Assembly: GCF_026340465.1 (NCBI RefSeq)
Contig: NZ_JAPEPC010000001.1
Coordinates: 4,655,001-4,719,000 of the forward strand
Length of the DNA: 64,000 bases
Direction: 5' to 3'
Source: Streptomyces sp. NBC_01306
GTDB taxonomy: Bacteria > Actinomycetota > Actinomycetes > Streptomycetales > Streptomycetaceae
Part shown: positions 32,006 through 45,497 of the stretch, piece by piece
Position numbering within the stretch: the stretch's first letter is position 1
How the letters are laid out: every line of letters begins with the position of its first letter
Translations under genes and position numbers: made by a program
Notes under the pieces: model-generated
Seen by the model: only the letters and a program-made list of their open reading frames with translations
Database searches by the model: none
Told to the model about the DNA's origin: nothing

Positions 32006-32932
32006 CTACTTCACCGCGCCCGCCATGACGCCGTTGACGAACTGCCGCTGGAACGCGAAGAACACCGCCAGCGGGATCACCATCGAGATGAAGGCGCCGG
32101 GTGCCAGCACGTCGATGTTGTTGCCGAACTGCCTGACCTGCTCCTGGAGCGCGACCGTGATCGGCGGGTGCTTGGAGTCCGCGAAGATCAGGGCGACCAG
32201 CATGTCGTTCCACACCCAGAGGAACTGGAAGATCCCCAGCGAGGCGATGGCCGGACCGCCGAGCGGCAGCACGACCCGGGTGAACAGCCGGAGCTCCCCG
32301 GCCCCGTCCAGCCGCGCGGCCTCCAGGAGTTCCCTCGGGATCTCCGCGAAGAAGTTGCGCAGCAGGAAGACCGCGAACGGCAGCCCGAACGCCACATGGA
32401 AGAGGACCACCCCCGCCGTGGTCTCGAAGAGCCCGATCTCGCCGAAGAGTTTCGAGACCGGGATCAGGGCCACCTGGACCGGCACGACCAGCAGGCCGAC
32501 CACGACCAGGAACCACCAGTCGCGACCGGGGAAGTCCATCCACGCGAAGGCGTACGCGGCCAGCGAGCCGATGACCACCACCAGGAGGGTCGCCGGGACG
32601 GTGATCATGACCGTGCTGAGCAGGGAGTCGGTGATGACCTTGTTGTCGAGGATCTTGGAGTAGTTGTCGAAGGTCAGCTGCGAGGGCGCGGTGAAGACCT
32701 TCCACCAGCCGGACGCCGCGATGTCGGACGAGCCGCGCAGCGAGGAGAGCAGCAGCCCGATCGTCGGCATCAGCCAGAACAGGCCGACCAGGACGAGGAA
32801 GACCCGCATCACGCTGCCGCCCGCGCGGGCCGCGATCCGGGAGGCCAGCGGCTCCTTCGGCTTCGCCGCCGGGACCGCGGGCAGCCGGTCGTCGGGGGCC
32901 CGTGGCGCGGGCACCTGGGCTTCGGTGGTCAT
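32006..32932 (-). CDS. Sugar ABC transporter permease (MalG type)
   Basis: A 308-residue inner permease of a carbohydrate importer. An Ala/Pro-rich N-terminal segment of about 35 residues is followed by six membrane segments and the EAA loop EAARLDGAGELRLFTRVVLP, which contacts the ATPase. It ends in the usual FVNGVMAGAVK. The start ATG overlaps the stop of the first permease gene by 4 bp (ATGA). No ATPase gene is present in the cluster; Streptomyces importers commonly share the MsiK ATPase encoded elsewhere. Substrate unknown. Confidence 0.93.
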   Translation of the reverse strand: MTTEAQVPAPRAPDDRLPAVPAAKPKEPLASRIAARAGGSVMRVFLVLVGLFWLMPTIGLLLSSLRGSSDIAASGWWKVFTAPSQLTFDNYSKILDNKVITDSLLSTVMITVPATLLVVVIGSLAAYAFAWMDFPGRDWWFLVVVGLLVVPVQVALIPVSKLFGEIGLFETTAGVVLFHVAFGLPFAVFLLRNFFAEIPRELLEAARLDGAGELRLFTRVVLPLGGPAIASLGIFQFLWVWNDMLVALIFADSKHPPITVALQEQVRQFGNNIDVLAPGAFISMVIPLAVFFAFQRQFVNGVMAGAVK

Positions 32933-34278
32933 CGGCGCCCCTCCTTCCGCATCCTGCGGATGTTGACGAGCATGATCGGGACGACCAGGAGCAGCAGCAG
33001 TACGGCGATGGCGCTGCCGGTGCCCAGATCCGCGTCCGTACCGAACGACGAGCGGTAGAGCTGGAGCGCCAGGACGTTCGCGTCGTCCTGCGAGGAGCCG
33101 GGCGCCACGATGAAGACCAGGTCGAAGATCTTCAGGACGTTGATCATCAGCGTCACCAGCACCACCGCGAGGACCGGAGCGAGCAGCGGGATGGTGATCC
33201 GGCGGAAGACCTGCCACTCACTGGCCCCGTCCACCCGGGCCTGTTCGAGGAGTTCACGCGGGAGTCCGGCCAGGCCCGCCGCGATGAGGACCATGGCGAA
33301 GCCGGCCCACATCCAGACGTAACTGCCGATGATCGACGGGGTGACCAGGGTCGGCCCGAGCCAGTTGACGCCGTTGTACGGCTCGCGGAAGTTCGAGTCG
33401 GGGAGCCGGAGCAGCGCTCCGTCCGCCTTCGCGGGCAGCGTGAACGTACCGTCGGGCGCCGCCTTGGCGCTCGCCACCACCTTGCCGCCCTTGACCGCCT
33501 CGACCGTGACGCCCTTGAGCCCCAGCTCCTTGGGGTCGATGACGTTCGGTTTGCCGCCGCCGCCCAGGGTGAAGTCCAGCCAGGCCGTGCCGGTCACCGA
33601 ACCGGCCGCGGCCTTCGGGGCTTTGGCGGGCTTCGCCGACGACGGCATCTTCGTGGGCAGTACGCCGACGAGCGGCAGCCGGACCGGGGTGCCCGCGTGC
33701 ACCGGCTGCTTGGTCAGGTACGAGCCACCGCCGCCGGACTTGAGCGGGGCCACCGGCAGCGGGTGCGCCCCCGGGTACCCTGCCGACTCGGCGAAGGTGT
33801 CGTGCACGCCCACCCAGACGGCGTTGGCCACCCCGCGCCCCGGATCCTGCTCGTACACCAGCCGGAAGATGATGCCGGCCGCGAGCATCGAGATGGCCAT
33901 CGGCATGAAGACGACCAGCTTGAACGCCGTTCCCCAGCGCACCCGTTCGGTGAGTACGGCGAAGATCAGGCCGAGCACGGTGGCGACGGTCGGGGCGACC
34001 ACGACCCAGATCGCGGTGTTCTTGATCGCGGTGCGGATCGCGTCGTCGGTGAAGAGGGTCTTGTAGTTGTCGATACCGATGAAGCTGGAGCCTGCCTGGT
34101 CGAAGAAGGACCGGTAGACCGAATACCCGATCGGGTAGACCACGAGCGCGCCGAGCAGCACCAGGGCGGGCAGCAGGAAGGCGGCCGCCAGGACTTTACG
34201 TGTGCCTGTCACGCTCTTGTGCGGCTTTCCGGCGGGGGGCGCCCCGTTGAGGACGTCCCCCGCGACAGCGGAGGTCAT
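32929..34278 (-). CDS. Sugar ABC permease (MalF type) with extracytoplasmic insert
   Basis: A 449-residue permease, about 150 longer than its relatives. The first membrane segments lie at about 28-55 and 85-140. Residues 145-305 form an insert facing outside: a Gly/Ser-rich stretch, a Pro/Ala/Lys linker (about 211-225), then a beta-rich module (SVTGTAWLDFTL, LKGVTVEAVKGGKVVASA, APDGTFTLP) like a SdrD B/carboxypeptidase-regulatory fold. The remaining membrane segments contain the EAA loop (EQARVDGASEWQVFRRITIP). E. coli MalF has a periplasmic P2 loop at a similar place, so a docking role for the binding protein is plausible. Start ATG 34278; the binding-protein gene stops 8 bp upstream. Confidence 0.9.
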   Translation of the reverse strand: MTSAVAGDVLNGAPPAGKPHKSVTGTRKVLAAAFLLPALVLLGALVVYPIGYSVYRSFFDQAGSSFIGIDNYKTLFTDDAIRTAIKNTAIWVVVAPTVATVLGLIFAVLTERVRWGTAFKLVVFMPMAISMLAAGIIFRLVYEQDPGRGVANAVWVGVHDTFAESAGYPGAHPLPVAPLKSGGGGSYLTKQPVHAGTPVRLPLVGVLPTKMPSSAKPAKAPKAAAGSVTGTAWLDFTLGGGGKPNVIDPKELGLKGVTVEAVKGGKVVASAKAAPDGTFTLPAKADGALLRLPDSNFREPYNGVNWLGPTLVTPSIIGSYVWMWAGFAMVLIAAGLAGLPRELLEQARVDGASEWQVFRRITIPLLAPVLAVVLVTLMINVLKIFDLVFIVAPGSSQDDANVLALQLYRSSFGTDADLGTGSAIAVLLLLLVVPIMLVNIRRMRKEGRR

Positions 34279-34285
34279 CGCGGCG

Positions 34286-35662
34286 TCAGTTCTTGTACGC
34301 CTTGGCCGCGTCGGACTCCAGCTTCTGCTGTGTCCCCGCGATGTCCTTCGGGTTCTTCAGGAAGTCCTGGAGGTCCTTCCACTCGCCCTTGCCCGGTGTG
34401 CCGCCGAAGGACTGCGGTGCCTGGTCCGACATGTCGAAGCGGATGTCGTCGCCCGCCGCGACCAGTGCTTTGGCGATGGTGCGCTGCACGTCATTGGGGT
34501 AGGCCGACAGGTCCAGGCCCTTGTTGGGCGAGACGAAGCCGCCCGACCCCGCGGCGATCTTCGCCGCGTCCGTGGAGGCCAGCCAGGTCAGCAGCGCCTG
34601 CGCGCCCTTGGAGTCCTTGAGGATCACCGCGGCGTCGCCGCCGGTCACCACCGGCGCCTTGGCGCCCACCGCGGGGAACGGGAAGACCTTCGCGTCGGTG
34701 CCCACCTTCGCCTTGGTCTGCGCGATGTTGGTCTGCGCGAAGTCACCCTCGAAGACCATCGCGCCCTTGGGCTGGTCACCACCGGTGAAGGTCTGGGTGA
34801 CCGACGTCGGGAACTCGGTCTGGAGCGCACCGTCCGCACCGCCCGAGATGAGCGACGGCTTGCCGAAGAGCTGCGCGAGCGTGGTCAGTGCGGCCTTGAC
34901 CGACGGATCCGTCCACTTGATCTTGTGCTGGGCCAGCTGGTCGTACTTGTCCGGGCCCGCCTGGGAGAGATAGACGTTCTCGAACCAGTCGGTCAGGGTC
35001 CAGCCGTCCGCGCCGCCGACCGAGACCGGGGTGACACCCGAAGCCGACACGGTCTCCGCGGTCTTGAGGAACGCCGGCCAGGTCTTGGGTACGGTCGCCC
35101 CCGCGTTCTGCATCGCCTTGGTGTTGTACCAGACCAGGGACTTGTTGGCGGCCTTGAAGTACACGCCGTACTGCTTGCCGCCGACCGTGCCGAGGTCCTT
35201 CCAGACCTGCGAGTAGTTCTTGTCCAGCTGCGCCTGCGCGGCCGGGCCCACCGGCTTGGCCCACTTCTTGGCCACCGCCTGGGTGATCGCGCCCACCTGC
35301 GGCATCATCGCCACGTCCGGCGGGGCGCCGCCGGCGATCTTCGTACCGAGGAAATTGACGATCGGGTCCTGCGCGGGCACGAAGGTGACCGACGCTCCGG
35401 TCCGCTTCTCGAACTCCTTCAGCACCTTGACGAAGTTCGCCTGCTCGGGGCCGGTCCAGACCGCGGCCACTTCGAGCTTCGTACCGCTCAGCTTGGGAAG
35501 CTCGACCCCGGACGCACTGCTCTTCCCCGCGGGCTTGCCGCTCCCGCTGTCCTTCTTGTTGTCGCTACCGCTGCCGCATCCCGCGGCCAGGACCAGCGAG
35601 CCCGCGGCCACCACCGCCAGAACGGTCCTGCGTGAACGTAGAGCTGTGCCTGTTGTGCGCAT
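34286..35662 (-). CDS. Sugar-binding lipoprotein of ABC importer
   Basis: The 458-residue extracellular solute-binding protein (SBP family 1). A twin-Arg-like SRRTVLAVVAAGSLVLAAGC signal ends in a lipobox with Cys29, followed by a Gly/Ser/Lys linker. The mature part has FEKRTGASVTFVPA, PPDVAMMPQVGA, GVYFKAANKSLVWYN and FEGDFAQ, typical of oligosaccharide-binding proteins. First gene of the three-gene importer operon. Start ATG 35662 with GAGAGGTCGGGG upstream. Substrate specificity cannot be read. Confidence 0.92.
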   Translation of the reverse strand: MRTTGTALRSRRTVLAVVAAGSLVLAAGCGSGSDNKKDSGSGKPAGKSSASGVELPKLSGTKLEVAAVWTGPEQANFVKVLKEFEKRTGASVTFVPAQDPIVNFLGTKIAGGAPPDVAMMPQVGAITQAVAKKWAKPVGPAAQAQLDKNYSQVWKDLGTVGGKQYGVYFKAANKSLVWYNTKAMQNAGATVPKTWPAFLKTAETVSASGVTPVSVGGADGWTLTDWFENVYLSQAGPDKYDQLAQHKIKWTDPSVKAALTTLAQLFGKPSLISGGADGALQTEFPTSVTQTFTGGDQPKGAMVFEGDFAQTNIAQTKAKVGTDAKVFPFPAVGAKAPVVTGGDAAVILKDSKGAQALLTWLASTDAAKIAAGSGGFVSPNKGLDLSAYPNDVQRTIAKALVAAGDDIRFDMSDQAPQSFGGTPGKGEWKDLQDFLKNPKDIAGTQQKLESDAAKAYKN

Positions 35663-35816
35663 TTGCCCCGACCTCTCCCATGCGCGTGCGGTCGGCGCGC
35701 CCATGACATCGGCGACGCCGTTGTCCCGTGAGCACAGTCCTACGCCGGGTGACTCCGGCGCCGCAATACCGGGCCTTGGTCCAACTATTCGATTGTGATG
35801 GGCCTGTGACGTTACG

Positions 35817-38800
35817 TCAGGCATTCAGGGAGGGTATGGACATCGCGTCGACGGACCTCGCGGCCCGTTCCAGGGCGCTGGCCAGCAGGGCCAAGTCCGT
35901 TGGTCCGTTGCCGAGTTCGCGGACGGGGCGGCGGTCGGGCGGGTCACCCATCCGCTCCCACTCCAGGGGTACGACGGTGGGGCGCAGCGTCGCCGTACGC
36001 GGAATGCGGCCGGTCACCCTGCCGCCCTGGAACGGGGTCACCCCGCCGTCGGGGCGGCCCAGCCTGCCCCGGCCCGGTGCCGGGGCGTCCGGCGCCGGGG
36101 AGGCCGGCGGGGCGTCGAGCACCACCCGCAGCCTGCTGACCCTGGCCAGCTCGGTGTCGGCCGTACGGTCCGGCCGGGCCGAAGCGGCTATCAGATGGAC
36201 GCCGAGCCGCTCACCGTCCCTGGCCACCGCCTCCAGCGCCCGGACGACCGAGCCCGCGGTGGGGCGTCCGGGGCTGCCGAGCGCCGGTGCGACCAGCGCG
36301 TCGAAGTCGTCGACGATCACCACCAGCCGGGGGAGCGGGGTGGGTCCCGGCATCGGGTCCGTACGCGCTCCGGCCGGGCGCAGCCGCAGGGTGCCGCTGG
36401 TCGGCGACTCGATGTCGCCGCTCTGCTCGGCCTGCCCCGGCTGCCGCCGGCCGACCAGCCGCTCCGCCACCTCACGGGTCCGGTGCCACTCGGCGAAGCT
36501 CCCGGCGCCCAGCAGCTCGGCCCGGCGCTTCAGCTCGCCGCCGAGCGCCTGCGCGAACTCCCGCATCCGGACCGGGTCGGACGCCACCAGATAGGTCGAG
36601 GTGTGCGGCAGCTCCGTGCAGGCCCGCAGGCCCTCGCCGCGCTCACCGCCCGCGCCGTCGACGAGGATCAGCCCGAGCCGGTCCGGCCGGGCGGCCGCCG
36701 CCAGCGAGGCCGCCGCTGCGCGCAGCAGCTCCGTACGGCCGCTGCCCGCCGGGCCCTCGACCAGCAGATGCGGACCCTCGGTCGCCAGGTCCATGGTGAC
36801 CGGGCCGCGGGGGCCCGCGCCGAGCACGGCGGTCGTCTCGGCCGCCGCCGCCCAGCGGGCCATCAGCGAAGCGGGGGTGGCACGGGCGAGCCCCAGCTCG
36901 TCGAGCAGCCGGGACGACGCGGGCAGCGCCGCGGCCTGCCGGGCGGGGGTGCCGGCCGCCGACACGTCGGCCCGCAGTGGTGCGAGCGCCCGGCCGAACC
37001 GCTCGGCCCAGGCCGACGACACCGCGTCGACCACGGCGAACGTGCCGCGGCTCGCGGACTGCCCGCCGGCCGCCGGATGGATCCCGCGCGCGGTGCGCAG
37101 CAGCCGCAGCGAGGTGGCCACATCGCCGCTCAGCAGGGCGGCGGCGCCGCACTCACGGAAGGCGAGCGAGGCTGCGCAGGCCGCCTCGTAGGTCGTTTCG
37201 AGCGGAGAGGCGGGGGAGGCCGCCGCCGTCTCGGCGAGACAGAGGACATGGACCCCGCAGGCGGAGCCCGCCGACGCCAGCCGTGCGGTGGTCTCGCGCA
37301 GGGCGGCCGAGCCGGGGTCGCCGTCCACGATCAGCAGGGTGCAGGGGCCGTCGTACCGCCCGGCCGCCGCCGAGACCGCCGCCGGATCGGCCGAGGCCCA
37401 GCCGGTGCCGAGCGGACTGTCGTCCAGCCGGCGCACCAGCTCAGCGGTGCGGGCGGTCGCCTGGTCCCTGTCGTACGCCAGCAGGAGCCGGCAGTCCTGG
37501 CCGTGGGCGGGCCGCACATGTGGCAGCCAGCCGAGCCAGCCCCAGTCGGATCTGCGGGCCTCCAGCGGGCGGGCCCGGTCCGTGCTGACCAGCACGATCT
37601 CCAGATCGGTGGGCGGATGCAGCGCGGCGAGCTGGGCGACCGCCGAACGGGCCAGCCCGGCCAGCCGCTCACGGGGACCCGCGAGCCCGAGCGAACCGGC
37701 CTCGCGCAGCGAGACCGTCACCGGCACCGCGGGCACCACGCCGACCCCGCCGGGCCCGGTCCGGTCGGCGGTGCCTAGCCGGATGACGAGCGCCTCCCGG
37801 TGGTCGGGGGTGCGCTCCCAGAGCCGGGGTCCCGGTCCCAGCGCGGTGAGCAGCAGCGCGGCCGGGTCGGGCCAGGTGTCCGCGCCGGGGATTCCGGCGG
37901 CCGGGTCCGGTGGCGTGTCGGACGGATCGGCGGACCGCTCCGCCGGACTGTCGCGTACGGCGTCGGGCCGGCTGCCCGCGAGCCGCCTCGCCCAGGCCCC
38001 TATACCGCCGCGTCTGCGGGCGCTGTCGTCCGTGTCGGAGGCGGAATCGGTGCTGTAGCGAGCGCCGTTGCCCCATGTGCCGGTGTCATCCGCGCCGCCG
38101 CTGCCGTCGGCGGGTGCGGCGCCGCGGGTGCGGCCACTGCCGAAGCCGTCCGGTGTCCGCTCGTGGGTCTCCGCGCCCCGGTCGGAGCGGAGCTTGGTGC
38201 CGCGCGGGGGAGTGCCCTGGCGGCCCCGGGAGGTGAACCCGGGGTCCTGGGCGTAGGCCGCCGCGGCCTCGTCGTACAGATTGCTGTAGGGGTCGTGCGG
38301 CTGCTGCGCCCCGACCGCGCTGACGCGCCGCGAGCTCGGTCCGCCGCTCGGTCCGCCGCCCGGTCCGGCGTCAGGGGAGCCGCCCTGCTCGGGTATCCGG
38401 GCCTCGGCGGGGACGGCGGGGGCCTGGCGTGCTCCGGGAACGGCGCCGGCCGGGCGGGCGCCGGTGGCCCCGGTGGCCTGAGCGGGCACGGAGGCGTAAC
38501 GGGGCTCGCCCGCCCCGTGACCGGATCCACCGGAGCCCGGACCCGCCGCGGCGCCCGCCTGCGTACCACCGGGGACGCCGGAACCGGTGCTGGAACGGGA
38601 AGCGGCGCCGGACCCGGAACCCTGAGCGCCGTCCGGGCCAGTGTCCTCGCGGGCGACCCGCAGATGGCCCTCGCCGTCCGGGACAGCCGCAAGCACTCCG
38701 CCGGTCGCCGTGGTGATCCGCAGCGCCGACTCGCCGACCCGGAGCAGGGAACCCGGTGTCATACGGACCGGGGCGTCGCCGACCCCCGAACCGTCCAGCG

Positions 38801-39293
38801 TCGTGCCGTTCGTCGAGCCGAGATCGGCGACGGTCACCCGGCCGTCCTGCTCCACCGTCACCGTGCAGTGCATCCGTGAGACGTCCGGGTCGTCCAGTGG
38901 GACGTCCGCGTCGGCGGAGCGGCCGACACGGATCCGGCCGCCGTGCAGCAGATGGACACCGCCCGCGTCCGGCCCGGCGACCACATGGAGCTGAGTGGCC
39001 GATCCGTCGCCCCGGTCGTCCTCCTCGGCGGGGACCTGGAGAGAGAGCACCGCTCCGTCCACCAGCGGGGGCTCACCCAGCGCGGAGCGTTGCAGGTCGA
39101 GGCGGTGCCCGCCCGCGTACAGCACCACGCTCCCGGACCCTGTGCCCTCCGGACCGGCGGCCGCCGTGGCGAGGCCTGACGCGACCGTGGCCAGCGCGGC
39201 CCCGGCGGGGGCGGTGACGAGCACGTCGCAGGTGCGCGCCTCGGACGCGGAGCGGCCGCTGCGCGGCGCGAGGACGGTCAGCCGGATCTGCAT
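35817..39293 (-). CDS. FHA domain / FtsK-type ATPase
   Basis: A 1158-residue protein. A ubiquitin-like N-terminal part (1-95) is followed by an FHA domain (about 100-190: GRIRVGRSADADVPL, DVSRMHC, LGSTNGTTLDG), which binds phospho-threonine. A disordered Gly/Pro/Ser linker (195-430) leads to FtsK/EccC-like modules: a first with no Walker A (PVTVSLREAGSLGLAGPRERL, WLGWLPH), then one with a P-loop GPAGSGRTE (about 844) in which Arg replaces the usual Lys, and Walker B LVVIVDDFDAL (about 988). No membrane segment is clear. Architecture resembles EssC/EccC of type VII secretion, but no ESX substrate genes are near. Divergent from two Ser/Thr kinases, likely partners for the FHA domain. Confidence 0.86.
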   Translation of the reverse strand: MQIRLTVLAPRSGRSASEARTCDVLVTAPAGAALATVASGLATAAAGPEGTGSGSVVLYAGGHRLDLQRSALGEPPLVDGAVLSLQVPAEEDDRGDGSATQLHVVAGPDAGGVHLLHGGRIRVGRSADADVPLDDPDVSRMHCTVTVEQDGRVTVADLGSTNGTTLDGSGVGDAPVRMTPGSLLRVGESALRITTATGGVLAAVPDGEGHLRVAREDTGPDGAQGSGSGAASRSSTGSGVPGGTQAGAAAGPGSGGSGHGAGEPRYASVPAQATGATGARPAGAVPGARQAPAVPAEARIPEQGGSPDAGPGGGPSGGPSSRRVSAVGAQQPHDPYSNLYDEAAAAYAQDPGFTSRGRQGTPPRGTKLRSDRGAETHERTPDGFGSGRTRGAAPADGSGGADDTGTWGNGARYSTDSASDTDDSARRRGGIGAWARRLAGSRPDAVRDSPAERSADPSDTPPDPAAGIPGADTWPDPAALLLTALGPGPRLWERTPDHREALVIRLGTADRTGPGGVGVVPAVPVTVSLREAGSLGLAGPRERLAGLARSAVAQLAALHPPTDLEIVLVSTDRARPLEARRSDWGWLGWLPHVRPAHGQDCRLLLAYDRDQATARTAELVRRLDDSPLGTGWASADPAAVSAAAGRYDGPCTLLIVDGDPGSAALRETTARLASAGSACGVHVLCLAETAAASPASPLETTYEAACAASLAFRECGAAALLSGDVATSLRLLRTARGIHPAAGGQSASRGTFAVVDAVSSAWAERFGRALAPLRADVSAAGTPARQAAALPASSRLLDELGLARATPASLMARWAAAAETTAVLGAGPRGPVTMDLATEGPHLLVEGPAGSGRTELLRAAAASLAAAARPDRLGLILVDGAGGERGEGLRACTELPHTSTYLVASDPVRMREFAQALGGELKRRAELLGAGSFAEWHRTREVAERLVGRRQPGQAEQSGDIESPTSGTLRLRPAGARTDPMPGPTPLPRLVVIVDDFDALVAPALGSPGRPTAGSVVRALEAVARDGERLGVHLIAASARPDRTADTELARVSRLRVVLDAPPASPAPDAPAPGRGRLGRPDGGVTPFQGGRVTGRIPRTATLRPTVVPLEWERMGDPPDRRPVRELGNGPTDLALLASALERAARSVDAMSIPSLNA

Positions 39294-39820
39294 AGCCGTC
39301 AGCGGTCCCTTCTGCGGAGGGTGCCTGGCAGGAGCCGCCCTGTGATCTCCCCCACCCGGCAGGTCGGCACGGCTTCACAGGACTCCCGACCCCATAACTC
39401 CGTGCTGAAGGCATCCTCGCATCTGCCACTGACAACACGCCCGGGGGTCACCGCTAAGTGATCTTGAATGGTCGGCTCTGGACGTAAAAGTGCCTGGTTG
39501 GGATCGCACCTGACCTGCCAGGAGGTGCCGGCGGGCGTCCCGGGGCAACCAAGGGGACAGTCTTCGCGTCTTCCTTTCGAACACGGCTGGAACACAGCTG
39601 GAACACGACTGGCGCCTGGCCGGAACACGGCCGGCGGCCGGCTGGAACCGGCTCCGGAATCCGATCCCGGACACCGGCCGTCACACCGGCCGCACACAGG
39701 GAAAGCCGCTCCGGAAGATCGTCGGCCAGTGCCCCCGCGGGCGGCACTAGAGTGGGGCGGACATCCGGGCGGGGGGCCGGTGGACCAGGCAAGGGACGAC
39801 GATCACAGGGAGCGCATGAC
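39294..39820. other. Divergent regulatory region between FHA-FtsK and kinase genes
   Basis: A 527-bp non-coding stretch with promoters for both directions. Its main feature is an 11-bp periodic array (39578-39654). Open frames across it do not hold a protein-like pattern because the repeat is not a multiple of three. A GGGAG ribosome-binding site for the kinase lies at 39808-39812. Confidence 0.6.
39578..39654. repeat. 11-bp helical-phase tandem array (GGAACACRRCT)
   Basis: Seven consecutive 11-bp units start at 39578, 39589, 39600, 39611, 39622, 39633 and 39644. Four match CGAACACGGCT, GGAACACAGCT, GGAACACGACT and GGAACACGGCC closely; the others keep GG at the start and CT/CC at the end. 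A unit near one helical turn would place the motif on one face of the DNA. Confidence 0.85.
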
Positions 39821-41521
39821 GTGCGGCCCGTAGGCAGCAAGTACCTGCTCGAGGAGCCGCTGGGACGCGGCGCCACGGGCACCGTCTGGCGTGCCAGCGT
39901 GGGGGCACCCCCTGGCGCGGAGCCCGTCGGAGCCCCTCGGGGGCGGGAGACCGCGGGCGCCGAGGCGGCCGTCGCCGGTCAGCCCGGCGAGACCGTGGCG
40001 ATCAAGGTCCTCAAGGAGGAGCTGGCCGAAGACCCGGACGTGGTGATGCGGTTCCTGCGGGAGCGCTCCGTCCTGCTGCGGCTGACCCACCCCAACATCG
40101 TGCGGACCCGGGACCTCGTCGTCGAGGGCGATCTCCTCGCGCTCGTCATGGACCTGATCGACGGCCCGGACCTGCACCACTACCTCCGGGACAACGGCCC
40201 GTTCAGCCCGGTCGCCGCCGCGCTGCTCACCGCCCAGATCGCCGACGCACTCGCCGCCAGCCATGCGGACGGCGTCGTCCACCGCGACCTGAAGCCAGCG
40301 AACGTACTGGTCAAGCACGACGCCGACGGCCAGATGCACCCGATGCTCACCGACTTCGGCATCGCCCGCCTCGCGGACTCGCCGGGCCTGACCCGTACCC
40401 ACGAGTTCGTCGGCACGCCCGCCTATGTGGCACCGGAGTCCGCCGAGGGCCGCCCGCAGACCTCCGCGGTCGACATCTACGGCGCGGGCATCCTGCTGTA
40501 CGAACTGGTCACCGGGCGGCCCCCGTTCGCGGGCGGCACGGCCCTGGAAGTCCTCCAGCGGCACCTCAGCGAGGACCCGCGCAGGCCCACCACCGTCCCC
40601 GAAGCGCTCTGGACGGTCATAGAGCGTTGCCTCAGCAAGGACCCGGGCCGCCGCCCCAGCGCCGAGAACCTGGCCCGCGGGCTGCGGACCGCAGCCGAGG
40701 GGATCGGCGTGCACGCCACGCCCGCGCAGGTCGCAGCCGCTCTCGGGGTGGCCGCGCTGCTGGCACCGGACCCCGAGCCCGCCGAGGTCCCCGGGACGCC
40801 CGGAGCCGCCGACCCCACCCAGGTCCTGCCGAACAACGCGGGGGCCTACGACCCCGCGGCGCGCACCAGCGTGCTGCCGAGCACGGGTGCTCCGGGTCCG
40901 GACGGCCGCCCCGGCCCCGGCGCCGCGGACCCGACCGCCGTGCTGCCGCCGGTGCCCGGCCGGGCACCGGACCAGCCCGAGCAGCCGCACCCCTGGCAGA
41001 ACCAGCTCAGCGCGGCCCGCGACCGCAACGAGCAGACCCAGGTGCAGTATCTGGCCCCGGAGCAGGACCCCCTGCGCCACCGGCCGCAGCGGCCCCAGCA
41101 GCAGCGGCAGTACCCGCCGCAGCAGTACCCGCAGCAGCAGCCGCAGCAGTACGCGCCGCAGCAGCAGCAGCCCCAACAGCCCCAGCAGTACGCCCCGCAG
41201 CGCCAGCCCCAGCAGCGCCCGCAGCAGCAGTACGCGCCCCCGCAGCAACCCCAGGCGCCCGCCCCGCGCGAGCCACGGGAGCCGAGGCGGCGCAGCGCCA
41301 ACCCGGTGAAGATCCCCGGCCTCGGCTGCCTCAAGGGCTGCCTCGTCATGGTCGTGATCCTCTTCGTGGGTTCCTGGCTGATCTGGGAGCTGACCCCGCT
41401 GCAGGAGTGGATCGGTACCTCCAAGAGCTTCATCTCGGAGATCTCCGACGGCTTCAACTCGGTCAAGGACTTCGTGCAGGGCCTGGGCGGATCCAGCGGG
41501 TCGGGCGGAACCGGAAACTGA
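39821..41521 (+). CDS. Membrane-anchored Ser/Thr protein kinase
   Basis: A 566-residue Hanks-type kinase. Gly-rich loop LGRGATGTVW (14-23), catalytic Lys62 in VAIKVLKEEL, HRDLKPAN (154-161, Asp156), DFG (178-180) and VGTPAYVAPES activation region. About 30 extra residues (27-57, Gly/Ala/Pro-rich) separate the Gly loop from the Lys, an unusual insertion. The C-terminal half is disordered, with a Gln/Pro/Tyr-rich segment (about 410-490), then a basic patch, a membrane segment (CLVMVVILFVGSWLIW) and a short outside tail of about 50 residues without PASTA repeats. It starts at a GTG with AGGGAG upstream. Followed by a second kinase. Confidence 0.9.
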   Translation: MRPVGSKYLLEEPLGRGATGTVWRASVGAPPGAEPVGAPRGRETAGAEAAVAGQPGETVAIKVLKEELAEDPDVVMRFLRERSVLLRLTHPNIVRTRDLVVEGDLLALVMDLIDGPDLHHYLRDNGPFSPVAAALLTAQIADALAASHADGVVHRDLKPANVLVKHDADGQMHPMLTDFGIARLADSPGLTRTHEFVGTPAYVAPESAEGRPQTSAVDIYGAGILLYELVTGRPPFAGGTALEVLQRHLSEDPRRPTTVPEALWTVIERCLSKDPGRRPSAENLARGLRTAAEGIGVHATPAQVAAALGVAALLAPDPEPAEVPGTPGAADPTQVLPNNAGAYDPAARTSVLPSTGAPGPDGRPGPGAADPTAVLPPVPGRAPDQPEQPHPWQNQLSAARDRNEQTQVQYLAPEQDPLRHRPQRPQQQRQYPPQQYPQQQPQQYAPQQQQPQQPQQYAPQRQPQQRPQQQYAPPQQPQAPAPREPREPRRRSANPVKIPGLGCLKGCLVMVVILFVGSWLIWELTPLQEWIGTSKSFISEISDGFNSVKDFVQGLGGSSGSGGTGN

Positions 41522-41619
41522 CGGCCCGCGCGGGCCGGCCGGGGCGGACAGCGCGCCATGCCCCGGCCCCCGTCCCGAGTTCCAGTCCCAGCCCGGCAGC
41601 CGGTCTGTATACATGTCGA

Positions 41620-41651
41620 CTTCTGCGCAATGAATTACCCCCGCAGAAGTG
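41620..41651. promoter_or_regulatory. Inverted repeat between the two kinase genes
   Basis: ACTTCTGCG (41620-41628) and CGCAGAAGT (41643-41651) form a perfect 9-bp inverted repeat with a 14-nt AT-richer spacer, 98 bp after the first kinase and 136 bp before the second. It could be a terminator or an operator. Confidence 0.4.
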
Positions 41652-41786
41652 AGGGTTCCTGCCATCCGGGGCACTGAACACCCCGATGCCCGCGTATTTT
41701 GGGAGCCGGGGACCGCCCGGAACCCGGCGCCTGTCCAGGGACGCACCCCCGGGCACGGCACAGCGCCAGCCGCTGAGGGAGCAGTC

Positions 41787-43067
41787 TTGGCACGGAAGAT
41801 CGGCAGCCGGTACACCGCGCACCAGATCCTGGGTCGCGGGAGCGCCGGCACGGTGTGGCTGGGCGAGGGGCCCTCGGGGCCCGTCGCCGTCAAGCTGCTG
41901 CGTGAGGACCTCGCGGCCGACCAGGAGCTCGTCGGCCGCTTCGTACAGGAGCGCACCGCGCTGCTCGGCCTCGACCACCCGCATGTCGTCTCCGTACGCG
42001 ACCTCGTCGTGGACGGCAACGACCTCGCCCTTGTGATGGACCTGGTCCGCGGCACCGATCTGCGCACCCGGCTCGACCGCGAGCGCCGCCTCAGCCCCGA
42101 GGCCGCCGTCGCCATCGTCGCGGACATCGCGGACGGACTCGCCGCCGCGCACTCCGCGGGCGTCGTGCACCGCGACGTCAAGCCCGAGAACATCCTGCTT
42201 GACATGCAGGGCCCGCTCGGCCCGGGCGGCTCCCACCCGGCGCTGCTCACGGACTTCGGCGTCGCCAAACTGATCGACGCTCCGCGCCGGGCGCTGCCCG
42301 CGGGTCCGGCCGGACCGGGCCGCCCGCAGGCGTCGAAGATCATCGGTACGCCCGACTACCTCGCCCCCGAGATCATCGAGGGCCTGCCGCCGCGCGCGTC
42401 CGTCGACATCTACGCCCTGGCGACGGTCCTCTACGAGCTCCTCGCGGGCTTCACGCCCTTCGGCGGCGGACACCCCGGCGCGGTCCTGCGCCGCCATGTC
42501 ACCGAGACTGTCGTGCCGCTCCCCGGCATCCCCGACGACCTCTGGCAGCTGCTGGTCCAGTGCCTGGCGAAGGCCCCCGCGTCCCGGCTGCGTGCGTCGG
42601 AGCTCGGCGAGCGGCTGCGCGAACAGCTCCCGCACCTCGCGGGCATCCCCCCGCTCGACGTGGACGAGCCCGACGAGTCGGAGCCGGGGGAGCAGCCGTA
42701 CGAGGAGACCTCGTACGAACCGGCCACGCCCACCGAGACCCGCCGCCGCGGCGCGGTCCCGCTCGTCCCCGGCTCCTCCGCCGACTCCAACCGCGACACC
42801 CACACGAGCATGCGCGTCCCGGCCCCCGACGAGCTGGCGGGCGGCCCGCTGGGCACGGCCCGCGCCCCCCGCTCCCCGAGCAGGCCGGGCTCCGCACGCC
42901 ACCGCTCCACGGCCGAGGCGGTGCGCAGACGCCGTATCAAACTGGGCGCAGCCGCGCTGGTCGTCGCCGCCGCGGTGGGCGTCGGCGGCTGGCTGGCCAC
43001 GTCGTCGGGCGACGGCGGCGGACCGGCCCCGCAGGACAGCCACCAGTCGGCGCCGTCCGGACCGTAA
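41787..43067 (+). CDS. Ser/Thr protein kinase with C-terminal membrane segment
   Basis: A 426-residue Hanks-type kinase. Gly loop [10 protein letters not shown] (15-24), Lys36 in [17 protein letters not shown] (128-135, Asp130), DFG (156-158) and [10 protein letters not shown]. The domain ends near 290. A Pro/Ser/Glu-rich linker follows, then a single membrane segment (about 383-403, [20 protein letters not shown]) and a short outside tail. It starts at TTG with GAGGGAG 5 nt upstream, a rare start codon. Paralogous to the preceding kinase, so probably duplicated and co-functional with the FHA-FtsK protein. Confidence 0.9.
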
Positions 43068-43177
43068 GGGCCTGCCCCGGCCCGTCCGGCCCGCCCGGCA
43101 CCGCACCGGGCCCCGTCCCCCCGGTCCGATCGGAAGGGCCGGGGACTGCCCCCGCTCCAAGCCGTTACGCTGGTGGC

Positions 43178-44284
43178 GTGGCAGTCGTCGATGTATCCGA
43201 AGAGCTGAAGTCCCTCTCCTCGACCATGGGGTCGATCGAGGCCGTCCTGGACCTCGACAAGCTGAGGGCCGATATCGCCGTGCTTGAGGACCAGGCCGCG
43301 GCGCCGTCCCTGTGGGACGACCCGGAAGAGGCCCAGAAGATCACCAGCAAGCTGTCGCACCTGCAGGCCGAGGTCCGCAAGACGGCGACGCTGCGCGGGC
43401 GGATCGACGACCTGGGGGTGCTCTTCGAGCTCGCCGAGGCCGAGGACGACGCCGACACCCTCGCCGAGGCCGAGTCGGAGCTGCTCGCCGTGCGCAAGGC
43501 GCTCGAAGAGATGGAGGTCCGCACCCTCCTCTCCGGCGAGTACGACGCCCGTGAGGCGCTCGTCAACATCCGCGCGGAGGCCGGCGGCGTCGACGCCGCG
43601 GACTTCGCCGAACAGCTCCAGCGCATGTACCTCCGCTGGTCCGAGCGGCACGGCTACGGCACCGAGGTCTACGAGACGTCGTACGCGGAGGAGGCCGGCA
43701 TCAAGTCGACCACCTTCGTCGTGAAGGTGCCGTACGCGTACGGCACGCTCTCCGTCGAGCAGGGCACCCACCGGCTGGTCCGGATCTCGCCCTTCGACAA
43801 CCAGGGGCGCCGCCAGACCTCCTTCGCGGGTGTCGAGGTGCTCCCGGTGGTGGAGAAGACCGACCACATCGAGATCGACGAGACCGAGCTGCGCGTGGAC
43901 GTCTACCGCGCATCGGGCCCCGGCGGCCAGGGCGTCAACACCACGGACTCGGCGGTCCGGCTGACACACATCCCCACCGGCATCGTCGTCTCCTGCCAGA
44001 ACGAGCGCTCGCAGATCCAGAACAAGGCCAGCGCGATGAACGTCCTCCAGGCGAAGCTCCTTGAGCGCCGCCGCCAGGAGGAGCAGGCGCTGATGGACTC
44101 GCTCAAGGGCGACGGCGGCAACTCCTGGGGAAACCAGATGCGTTCGTACGTCCTGCACCCGTACCAGATGGTCAAGGACCTGCGTACGGAGTACGAGGTC
44201 GGAAACCCGCAGGCGGTGCTCGACGGCGAGATCGACGGCTTCCTGGAAGCCGGAATTCGCTGGCGCAAGCAGCAGGAGAAGTAG
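43178..44284 (+). CDS. prfB: Peptide chain release factor 2
   Basis: Recognises UGA and UAA stop codons and releases the peptide. The 368-residue protein carries the SPF codon-recognition tripeptide (204-206) and the GGQ catalytic loop (249-251, [16 protein letters not shown]). The reading frame is unbroken, so the programmed +1 frameshift that autoregulates E. coli prfB is absent, as in other actinobacteria. It starts at a GTG without an obvious Shine-Dalgarno; TTACGCT lies a few bases upstream, so a leaderless transcript is possible. Precedes ftsE-ftsX, smpB and ssrA, the usual neighbourhood. Confidence 0.96.
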
Positions 44285-44588: not shown

Positions 44589-45497
44589 ATGACCAAGAAG
44601 ACGCGGATTCGCGTAGCGCGCATAGCTGCGGGCGCAGTGATCGCCGCAGGCGCCTCGCTGACCGCCGCGGGCGCGGCACAGGCCGCAGATATTCATGTCC
44701 CGCTTCTCGGCACCGACATCTCGATCACGTCGGGCGACGACGGCGGCGCGGACGGTGGCAGCACCGACGGCGGCACCAACCCGATCGGTGGCGTCGACGG
44801 CGGTTCGTCGGACCAGGGTCAGGACGGCGGTTCGTCCGACCAGGGTCAGACGGGCGGTTCGTCGGACCAGGGTCAGGACGGCGGTTCGTCCGACCAGGGT
44901 CAGACGGGCGGTTCGTCGGACCAGGGTCAGGACGGCGGTTCGTCCGACCAGGGTCAGACCGGTGGTTCGAGTGACCAGGGTCAGGACGGCGGTTCGTCCG
45001 ACCAGGGTCAGACCGGTGGTTCGAGTGACCAGGGCCAGGACGGCGGTTCGTCCGACCAGGGCCAGACCGGTGGTTCGAGTGACCAGGGCCAGACCGGTGG
45101 ATCGTCCGACCAGGGCCAGGACGGCGGTTCGACCACGAGCGGTTCCACCAGCGGCTCGACGAGCGGTTCGACGAGCGGTTCCACCAGTGGTTCGACCACC
45201 AGCGGTTCGACCACCGGTGGTTCGGGCGACAACGGGGGCACCTCCGGTTCCACCGGCGGCTCCCACTCGTCCACCACGGGCGGTTCGTCCACGACCGGCG
45301 GTTCCTCCAGCACCGGCACCCAGCCCGACAACCTCGGCTCCCAGCCGGTCGAGCAGGGCAAGCCCAAGCAGGAGCTCGCCGAGACCGGTGCGGGTGACAC
45401 CACGTTCCTGATCATCGGTGCCGCGACGATGATCGCCGGTGGCATCGGCTTCCGTATGCTGCCGCGTCTCGCCGGCCGCGGCGGGAACCTCGCCTGA
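44589..45497 (+). CDS. LAXTG surface protein with 9-residue repeats (sortase E substrate)
   Basis: A 302-residue secreted, wall-anchored protein. The N-terminal signal ends near AAQAA (about 32). Residues 71-178 are 12 tandem copies of GGSSDQGQ(D/T), alternating D and T almost strictly. A Thr/Ser/Gly stretch (STTSGSTSGST repeats) follows to about 240. The C-terminus has LAETG (263-267), a hydrophobic span (FLIIGAATMIAGGIGF) and a basic tail, the sorting signal for actinobacterial class E sortase. No globular domain is present, so it is a stalk or spacer of unknown function. Start ATG 44589 has weak ribosome-binding site GGGGGTAG. Low sequence complexity means the length may vary among strains. 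Confidence 0.86.
   Translation: MTKKTRIRVARIAAGAVIAAGASLTAAGAAQAADIHVPLLGTDISITSGDDGGADGGSTDGGTNPIGGVDGGSSDQGQDGGSSDQGQTGGSSDQGQDGGSSDQGQTGGSSDQGQDGGSSDQGQTGGSSDQGQDGGSSDQGQTGGSSDQGQDGGSSDQGQTGGSSDQGQTGGSSDQGQDGGSTTSGSTSGSTSGSTSGSTSGSTTSGSTTGGSGDNGGTSGSTGGSHSSTTGGSSTTGGSSSTGTQPDNLGSQPVEQGKPKQELAETGAGDTTFLIIGAATMIAGGIGFRMLPRLAGRGGNLA
44799..45122 (+). repeat. Twelve 27-bp coding repeats
   Basis: Units of GGCGGTTCGTCSGACCAGGG plus CAGGAC or CAGACS, all in frame, encode GGSSDQGQ(D/T). Codon differences are few (TCGTCG or TCGTCC, then later TCGAGT), suggesting recent expansion by slippage or unequal crossing-over. Confidence 0.93.

Follow-up and report, generated by a model that had tools for sequence, protein, structure and literature searches.

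The window analysed here is a stretch of 64,000 nucleotides from Streptomyces sp. NBC_01306 (contig NZ_JAPEPC010000001.1, positions 4,655,001 to 4,719,000), in which the gene for an 1158-amino-acid protein with FHA and FtsK-like domains (35817-39293, minus strand) lies divergent from the genes for two Ser/Thr kinases with a single transmembrane (TM) segment each (K1, 39752-41521, and K2, 41649-43067, both plus strand). We see an even chance that an ATPase of a type VII secretion system (T7SS), of the FHA-bearing EssC/EccC type, was turned, at its original position, into a cytosolic pseudo-ATPase scaffold by which the signals of the two kinases, the orthologues of PkaA and PkaB, are read. It is probable that a type VII ATPase has turned into an FHA pseudo-ATPase, and the protein is probably a signalling scaffold, not a motor. 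The grounds for this are the loss of Walker A and Walker B residues that are intact in controls, the invariant residues of the FHA domain, purifying selection, and co-conservation with the kinases. The conserved protein and its missing catalytic residues are apparent from the sequences; docking and a platform function we infer. A preliminary description of these genes, which had proposed a translocating motor, is thus partly supported overall.

The domain anatomy is that of a shortened secretion ATPase. Pfam places an FHA domain (9.7e-17, amino acids 121-187) and an FtsK_SpoIIIE domain (1.5e-17, amino acids 828-1041) in the protein, both above cut-off, and a Pkinase domain in K1 (4.6e-51) and K2 (7.4e-45), each of which has one strong hydrophobic stretch near its C-terminus (KD, the Kyte-Doolittle value, 2.33 and 2.02). 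The preliminary description of an FHA-FtsK ATPase opposite two membrane kinases therefore stands, as does its likening of the architecture to EssC/EccC, since the EccC DUF and the ATPase fold are found by sequence and by model. The DUF domain (amino acids 475-776; 36966-37871, minus strand) matches, over residues 470-776, the M. tuberculosis EccC5 DUF (8rin_A) with Z 21.4 at 3.5 A over 237 aligned residues, and 8rin is also found by sequence. The ATPase fold (amino acids 820-1060, 36114-36836, minus strand) is covered by PF01580 and by EccC sequence matches, and a model of amino acids 788-1158 (pLDDT 74.5) matches the ATPase folds of EssC, EccC and FtsK with Z 24-27. These fold matches fall on ATPases 2-3 and FtsK as much as on ATPase 1, and we assign the domain to ATPase 1 because of its place after the DUF and its best sequence matches. 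There is only a single PF01580 stretch and the protein ends at amino acid 1158, so ATPases 2 and 3 are missing; an EssC-like gene and an EccC gene elsewhere in the same genome have two and three such stretches, respectively. The protein scores 157 bits against TIGR03924 (EccCa; cut-off 509) and 80 against TIGR03928 (cut-off 778). (The EssC-like gene of the same genome also falls under these cut-offs, with 435 and 593 bits.)

Between FHA and DUF lies a fast evolving, Gly/Pro-rich linker (amino acids 197-474, 37872-38705, minus strand) with no TM segment. The most hydrophobic 19-mer of the whole protein reaches only KD 1.68, at amino acid 24 within the N-terminal domain, so that no membrane segment is seen, as had been noted previously. 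In an alignment of 56 rows (53 of the 91 loci, those in which both ends were located, together with L115, L117 and the window) none of the linkers from FHA to DUF reaches KD 1.8; the TM segments expected before the DUF in an EccC/EssC protein are not found. At least five orthologues do have a 19-mer above 1.8 outside the linker, in the N-terminal domain or the body. Among class-level EssC-like relatives, 12 of 15 have at least one TM-like segment in the protein, and L123, L132 and L134 have none. Taken together, the sequence features suggest a remnant of EccC/EssC that consists of FHA, DUF and one ATPase domain and lacks TM and ATPases 2-3. A short GAWARRLAG-like patch occurs in the Streptomyces linkers at about amino acids 430-440; it was considered as an amphipathic helix and rejected, its moment of 0.5 lying under the top values of the protein.

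Could this protein still be a motor? At the Walker A motif (amino acids 847-854, GPAGSGRT; 36732-36755, minus strand) the Lys is replaced by Arg, and among 91 loci the position holds Arg in 81, Val in five and Lys in four, and is lost in one. At Walker B (amino acids 995-996, DD; 36306-36311, minus strand) the catalytic Glu is replaced as well: the 56 rows have Asp (51), Asn (4) or Gly (1), and never Glu. In EccC/EssC controls outside the clade, the Walker A Lys is present in 17/17 and the Walker B Glu in 16/16 readable rows. In family f3 of the order, Val or Ile stands in place of the Lys, and nucleotide binding is arguably dispensable there. In a tree of 46 chosen rows, made with the motif columns removed, the window clade (29 rows) forms one side of a branch with support 98/94. 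The loss of Glu requires a single change and the Walker A states five, counting the gap in L117 as a state. The ATPase part is nonetheless under strong purifying selection despite the loss of its catalytic residues, with dN/dS against three Streptomyces of 0.18-0.36, compared to 0.20-0.29 for the FHA domain and 0.50-1.09 for the linker. The motor is thus probably dead, and the ATPase probably does not hydrolyse.

The alternative is an active phospho-gated motor, an FtsK/EccC ATPase docked through its FHA domain that would still split ATP and translocate DNA or protein once a kinase has phosphorylated its partner. The P-loop shape and the ATPase fold are retained, and the purifying selection on the ATPase domain would be expected of such an enzyme too. 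With the Glu gone in 56/56 rows, the Lys gone in 87/91 loci, Val or Ile in family f3, no TM segment in the linker, and ATPases 2-3 missing, we regard this motor as decidedly unlikely, and the translocating activity in the preliminary description found no support.

The FHA domain, in contrast to the ATPase, appears fully equipped. It spans amino acids 98-196 (38706-39002, minus strand) with the residues GR, SRxH and STNG, and its closest solved folds are those of DgcB, GarA, OdhI and the FHA domain of FhaA (Z 17-19). All nine motif residues, among them GR, S-x-x-H and N-G, are invariant in the 79/79 loci that hold the N-terminus. They are canonical for reading phosphothreonine, which the domain would presumably do, and on this point the preliminary description is supported. 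In GarA and OdhI, FHA regulators that belong with PknB-type kinases, there is no ATPase body, and their targets are metabolic enzymes. The FHA half at first seemed to be lost in 34 of 91 loci, an impression created by BLAST composition statistics and by contig ends. When these statistics are switched off, it is found in 79 of 91; the other 12 loci start at a contig end inside the gene, too near the ATPase part to contain it.

In front of the FHA domain is an N-terminal domain (amino acids 1-86, 39036-39293, minus strand), which may be described as beta-grasp-like by the topology of the AlphaFold model alone (strand-strand-helix-strands; model m2030bf1efe2f, covering this domain and the FHA domain, mean pLDDT 81.9). 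The VIA-align fold-comparison rows for this model span the FHA domain only. A ubiquitin-like N-terminus was considered on the basis of sequence and rejected, since a profile of amino acids 1-95 gave no match to the YukD part of the EccD encoded in this genome (probability 0.3 percent); against PDB sequences the best E value of this profile was only 0.5.

The arrangement with the kinases is strongly conserved too. Related loci were found in 80 cases, all Streptomyces, of which 62 have at least 5.5 kb upstream and could be counted, 18 having too little flank. K1 is present in 62/62 of these, and K2 and prfB in 61/62 each; a lack of co-conservation, which would have refuted the preliminary description, was therefore not observed. 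Five further loci of the same genus (L118-L122) have both kinases, four of them with prfB. Seven loci come from other families of the order, four from one genus; six of them (L112, L113, L115, L116, L117 and L137) have both kinases and prfB, and in L114 K1 is present up to the contig end. The three-gene arrangement persists even when the identity of the FHA protein falls to about 40%, and a search with the N-terminal FHA half at E 1e-30 gives a single match per genome in 60/60 genomes of the order. A co-conserved kinase-FHA module is thus supported. Could the FHA gene and the two kinase genes each matter and yet be neighbours without being partners? Their adjacency might reflect an old gene order near prfB-ftsEX, with the FHA domain reading other kinases. 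Streptomyces have many further kinases, the neighbourhood from prfB to ftsX is itself old and stable, and the strand of the FHA gene has no sigmaE-type site. Against this, the arrangement is held at the low identity given above, and the FHA-EssC homologue has a kinase for a neighbour even at class level, in the sister L136, so that we consider mere adjacency unlikely.

Where, then, did the module come from? At class level, 74 of 148 genomes match the full alignment; beyond the genus, most of these matches sit in long frames that resemble EssC. The closest outside relative in the tree is L136 (genome G027), the sister of the window clade, which has in one row an FHA-EssC-like gene, a WXG100 gene (75 bits), a divergent kinase, a T2SSE gene, prfB, an ftsE-like ABC gene and ftsX. 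The WXG100 gene sits between the FHA-EssC homologue and the kinase, at the same prfB site, and in the homologue Walker A is intact and a TM-like segment (KD 1.78) is seen. This points to a type VII locus as the ancestor of the module. In the simplest history, built on one genome, this site would have held a small type VII locus from which the WXG100 gene, the TM segment, ATPases 2-3 and catalysis were lost, while the FHA domain and one kinase were kept and the kinase became a pair. Relatives that encode the ATPase within a complete ESX locus would have refuted the preliminary description, and this check comes out in part: the locus in L136 is not complete, but its homologue is flanked by WXG100 and Walker A is intact there.

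Among nine class-level genomes with FHA-type hits that were scanned for WXG100, this gene lies within 2.5 kb of the ATPase match in three (G027, G066 and G031) and was not found within that distance in G044, G046, G062 and G159; G029 and G078 are interrupted by contig breaks and count for neither side. Two other candidates for a full-length T7SS in situ at the prfB site, L124 (G044) and L130 (G159), have FHA-EssC genes with intact Lys near prfB, and were rejected because their stretches contain no WXG100 and they fall outside the branch of L136 and the window clade. (In both, an alternative sigma factor and, adjacent to it, an HATPase_c_2 gene lie on the far side of the EssC gene, at L124:2112-3325 and L130:4779-5985, the latter domain below its cut-off in L124 and above it in L130.)

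No ESX genes were found near the module itself. Genome-wide, WXG100 gives five matches, three over the cut-off, and none inside the window, and a second scan of the window with a WXG100 profile and tblastn with the genome's own EccB and EccD gave no match. Nor was there a match to WXG100, EccB or EccD in the 80 Streptomyces loci (L020-L099), in L112-L122 or in L137. The EccB and EccD search was done by tblastn with own-genome proteins only, and the WXG100 profile had six rows, one of them (L017) in the wrong frame, although the known genes of L018 and L019 were still recovered. The scan was positive in the genome's own ESX stretches and found WXG100 in L136, a control left out of the profile (47.7 bits). 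Elsewhere in the genome, however, C2:2.24-2.25 Mb carries an ESX locus with EccC, EccD/YukD, EccB and WXG100, and at C2:2.83 Mb a second EssC-like gene is accompanied by WXG100 genes and an AfsK-like kinase. The missing ESX neighbours therefore do not amount to a genome-wide lack, and the earlier statement that no ESX genes are nearby is correct for the window and does not extend to the genome.

This leaves room for a protein with no motor role of its own, which inserts into separate EccC/EssC machines or titrates their partners and so couples kinase signals to secretion. The DUF and ATPase fold in common with those machines, the ESX loci elsewhere in the genome, and WXG100 genes in 12/12 tested genomes of the order and class would all suit such a regulator, and in S. 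aureus, a plasmid-borne EssC with D1 Walker mutations is described as dominant negative (PMC9436818). However, the FHA protein lacks the TM region by which EccC and EssC join the channel, its position is conserved with the kinases, and no WXG100, EccB or EccD accompanies it in the 80 Streptomyces loci; we think this role quite unlikely. As a side observation, the genome's own EssC-like gene with its WXG100 neighbours adjoins the AfsK-like kinase (L018:11605-18555), which has PQQ/BamB-type repeats and, at 343 bits, stays under the AfsK cut-off (1300). In L128, an EssC-like gene likewise has two kinases beside it.

The two kinases are of the Hanks type. The catalytic HRD and DFG motifs are in place in both, and a TxT activation loop is present in PkaA in 65/66 loci (GLTRTHEFVGT in the window), and in PkaB in 4/66; that of PkaA is like the one in PknB. 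The TM segment of PkaA is at about 41327-41383, and the tail anchor of PkaB at about 42942-42998. The first 20 nt from the TTG at 41787 are identical to a published SCO2973 cloning primer (PMC3087755), which identifies K2 as the PkaB/SCO2973 orthologue; going by this sequence, TTG 41787 is probably the pkaB start. PkaB has been described as an integral, tail-anchored membrane protein about which little is known (PMC3087755), and the K2 tail resembles the published anchor. By position relative to K2, K1 would be PkaA/SCO2974 and the ATPase protein SCO2975; the pkaA start may be GTG 39821 instead of 39752. Between its kinase domain and TM segment, PkaA has a Gln/Pro-rich low-complexity stretch (41090-41330, residues about 450-525).

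The divergent intergenic region (39294-39751, 458 nt to the first listed start) contains a sigmaE-type promoter of pkaA, GGCAAC-N17-CGTCTT (39544-39572, plus strand). The pattern AAC-N16/19-CGTC[TC] is found on the pkaA strand in 49/49 intergenic regions, always with a spacer of 17, compared to 0/49 on the opposite strand and 12/147 in shuffles. (These are the 49 of 67 loci with a clear pkaA in which the start of the FHA gene was found; using a wider stretch, the count is 67/67.) The regions are related by descent, so that 49/49 represents conservation, not independent support. In S. coelicolor, the sigmaE targets are reported to include sco2974 (pkaA), for which a site is published, and sco2975, and the promoters described as conserved in 9 or more of 19 genomes include that of pkaA (PMC6767563). 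By sequence, pkaA of the window would belong to the sigmaE regulon, as it is preceded by a promoter of the AAC-N17-CGTCT type. The three genes correspond to S. coelicolor pkaA/pkaB/sco2975 in the SCO2973 primer match and in a pkaA sigmaE site of the same spacing, and no difference between the two sets is known. The sigmaE paper, the single one in which sco2975 turned up, prints it as a hypothetical protein (PMC6767563), and a literature search covering few subscription journals found no paper on the function of the FHA protein.

How might the scaffold work? Envelope stress would cause sigmaE to raise PkaA, which would autophosphorylate on its conserved TxT loop. The FHA domain would then dock at the membrane on phosphorylated PkaA, or on a substrate of PkaA or PkaB, and the DUF/ATPase body would hold partners there, perhaps as an ATP-bound ring without turnover. 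This docking is proposed because PkaA and PkaB are single-TM kinases and because, in the T7SSb of B. subtilis and S. aureus, YukB/EssC is reported to associate through its FHA region with the single-TM pseudokinase YukC/EssB (PMC9600267, PMC9436818). By analogy, the complex would mirror EssC/YukB-EssB/YukC, except that its kinases are genuine and a secretion channel is missing. PkaA is also reported to interact with the spore-wall-complex kinase PkaI (PMC4416010), which would fit an envelope role. More tentatively, at somewhat less than an even chance, the whole would be a T7SS ATPase converted at its own site into a non-hydrolysing FHA platform, through which two adjacent membrane kinases read or transmit sigmaE envelope stress, so that a secretion core made of a single-TM kinase-fold protein and an FHA-ATPase became a signalling complex. 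If this were true, the contact between pseudokinase and FHA in T7SSb (EssB-EssC) might itself go back to real kinase signalling.

Among known systems, FHA-type EssC/YukB of T7SSb and actinobacterial relatives such as L124, L125, L126, L130 and L136 likewise have an FHA N-terminus, a DUF and an FtsK-type ATPase fold. Unlike EssC/YukB, the window protein has no TM, ATPases 2-3, catalytic residues or adjoining WXG100, and its neighbours are real kinases where the kinase-fold partner EssB/YukC is a pseudokinase. The EccC proteins of T7SSa (such as Thermomonospora curvata EccC and M. tuberculosis EccC5) have DUF (8rin) and ATPase folds alike by sequence and model, but there the N-terminus is a TM region and not an FHA domain. 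On our reading, a gene found once per genome in 60/60 genomes of the order gains a testable role as a likely reader of PkaA/PkaB, and provides a clean case of a secretion motor that loses catalysis yet remains under selection, as well as a natural comparison for the part that FHA domains and their kinase-fold partners play in holding together type VII machines.

Several points weigh against the scaffold reading. In four Streptomyces loci (L026, L030, L096 and L097) the Walker A Lys is present, with the Walker B Glu absent. These four are nested together in the tree (100/99), so that Lys was probably regained there by reversion; the 4/91 loci with Lys nevertheless speak for the motor. So does S. 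aureus EssC D2, where the Walker A also has Arg; the motifs are written G[K/R][S/T] and D[E/D] and counted as canonical in the same paper that describes mutation of this Walker A as breaking assembly of the translocon or complex (PMC9436818). Given this precedent, Arg and Asp are no proof of an inert site and, by analogy, nucleotide binding with a structural role may persist in Streptomyces. The arrangement itself has exceptions: L033 (S. beijiangensis) has neither pkaB nor prfB alongside, and L121 has both kinases and no prfB within 3.3 kb of pkaB. L136 has one kinase, not two, its placement has moderate support (85/86), its ATPase gene runs off the end of the contig, and its genome, G027, has a stated contamination of 6%. 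A sigmaE-type site on the strand of the FHA gene was found in 0/49 intergenic regions, and co-regulation of this gene is thus not supported here. Lastly, the binding of the FHA domain to PkaA or PkaB is itself a prediction.

Beyond K2 lies prfB (release factor 2; 43160-44284, plus strand; TIGR00020, 486 bits), which served as a syntenic anchor outside the proposed mechanism, with an ftsE/ftsX-like gene pair downstream. These genes, and the resemblance of the ATPase domain to the FtsK motor (Z 24-25), could point to an FtsK-type chromosome or division factor acting with ftsE/ftsX in septation, with phosphorylation as its switch. Since the sequence is of the EccC/EssC type with the EccC DUF and the Pfam scan found no FtsK gamma domain, this is highly improbable. 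The pkaA orthologue of L033 (4525-8794) has an identity of only 62%, and a further kinase-like stretch occupies the expected place of pkaB and prfB.

Further genes flank the module. At 44589-45497 (plus strand) is a 302-amino-acid protein with a repeated DQGQ[DT]GGSS unit, a C-terminal LAETG-like motif and a hydrophobic tail; it has no match in the Pfam scan, and from its sequence looks like a small sortase-anchored repeat protein. On the other side, after the FHA gene and on the same strand (32006-35824, minus), are genes for a solute-binding-like protein (SBP_bac_11, 20 bits, below the cut-off of 25) and a BPD_transp_1 permease, probably a sugar-type ABC transporter. The solute-binding gene follows the FHA gene in 79/80 Streptomyces loci and, among L112-L117, in L117 only.

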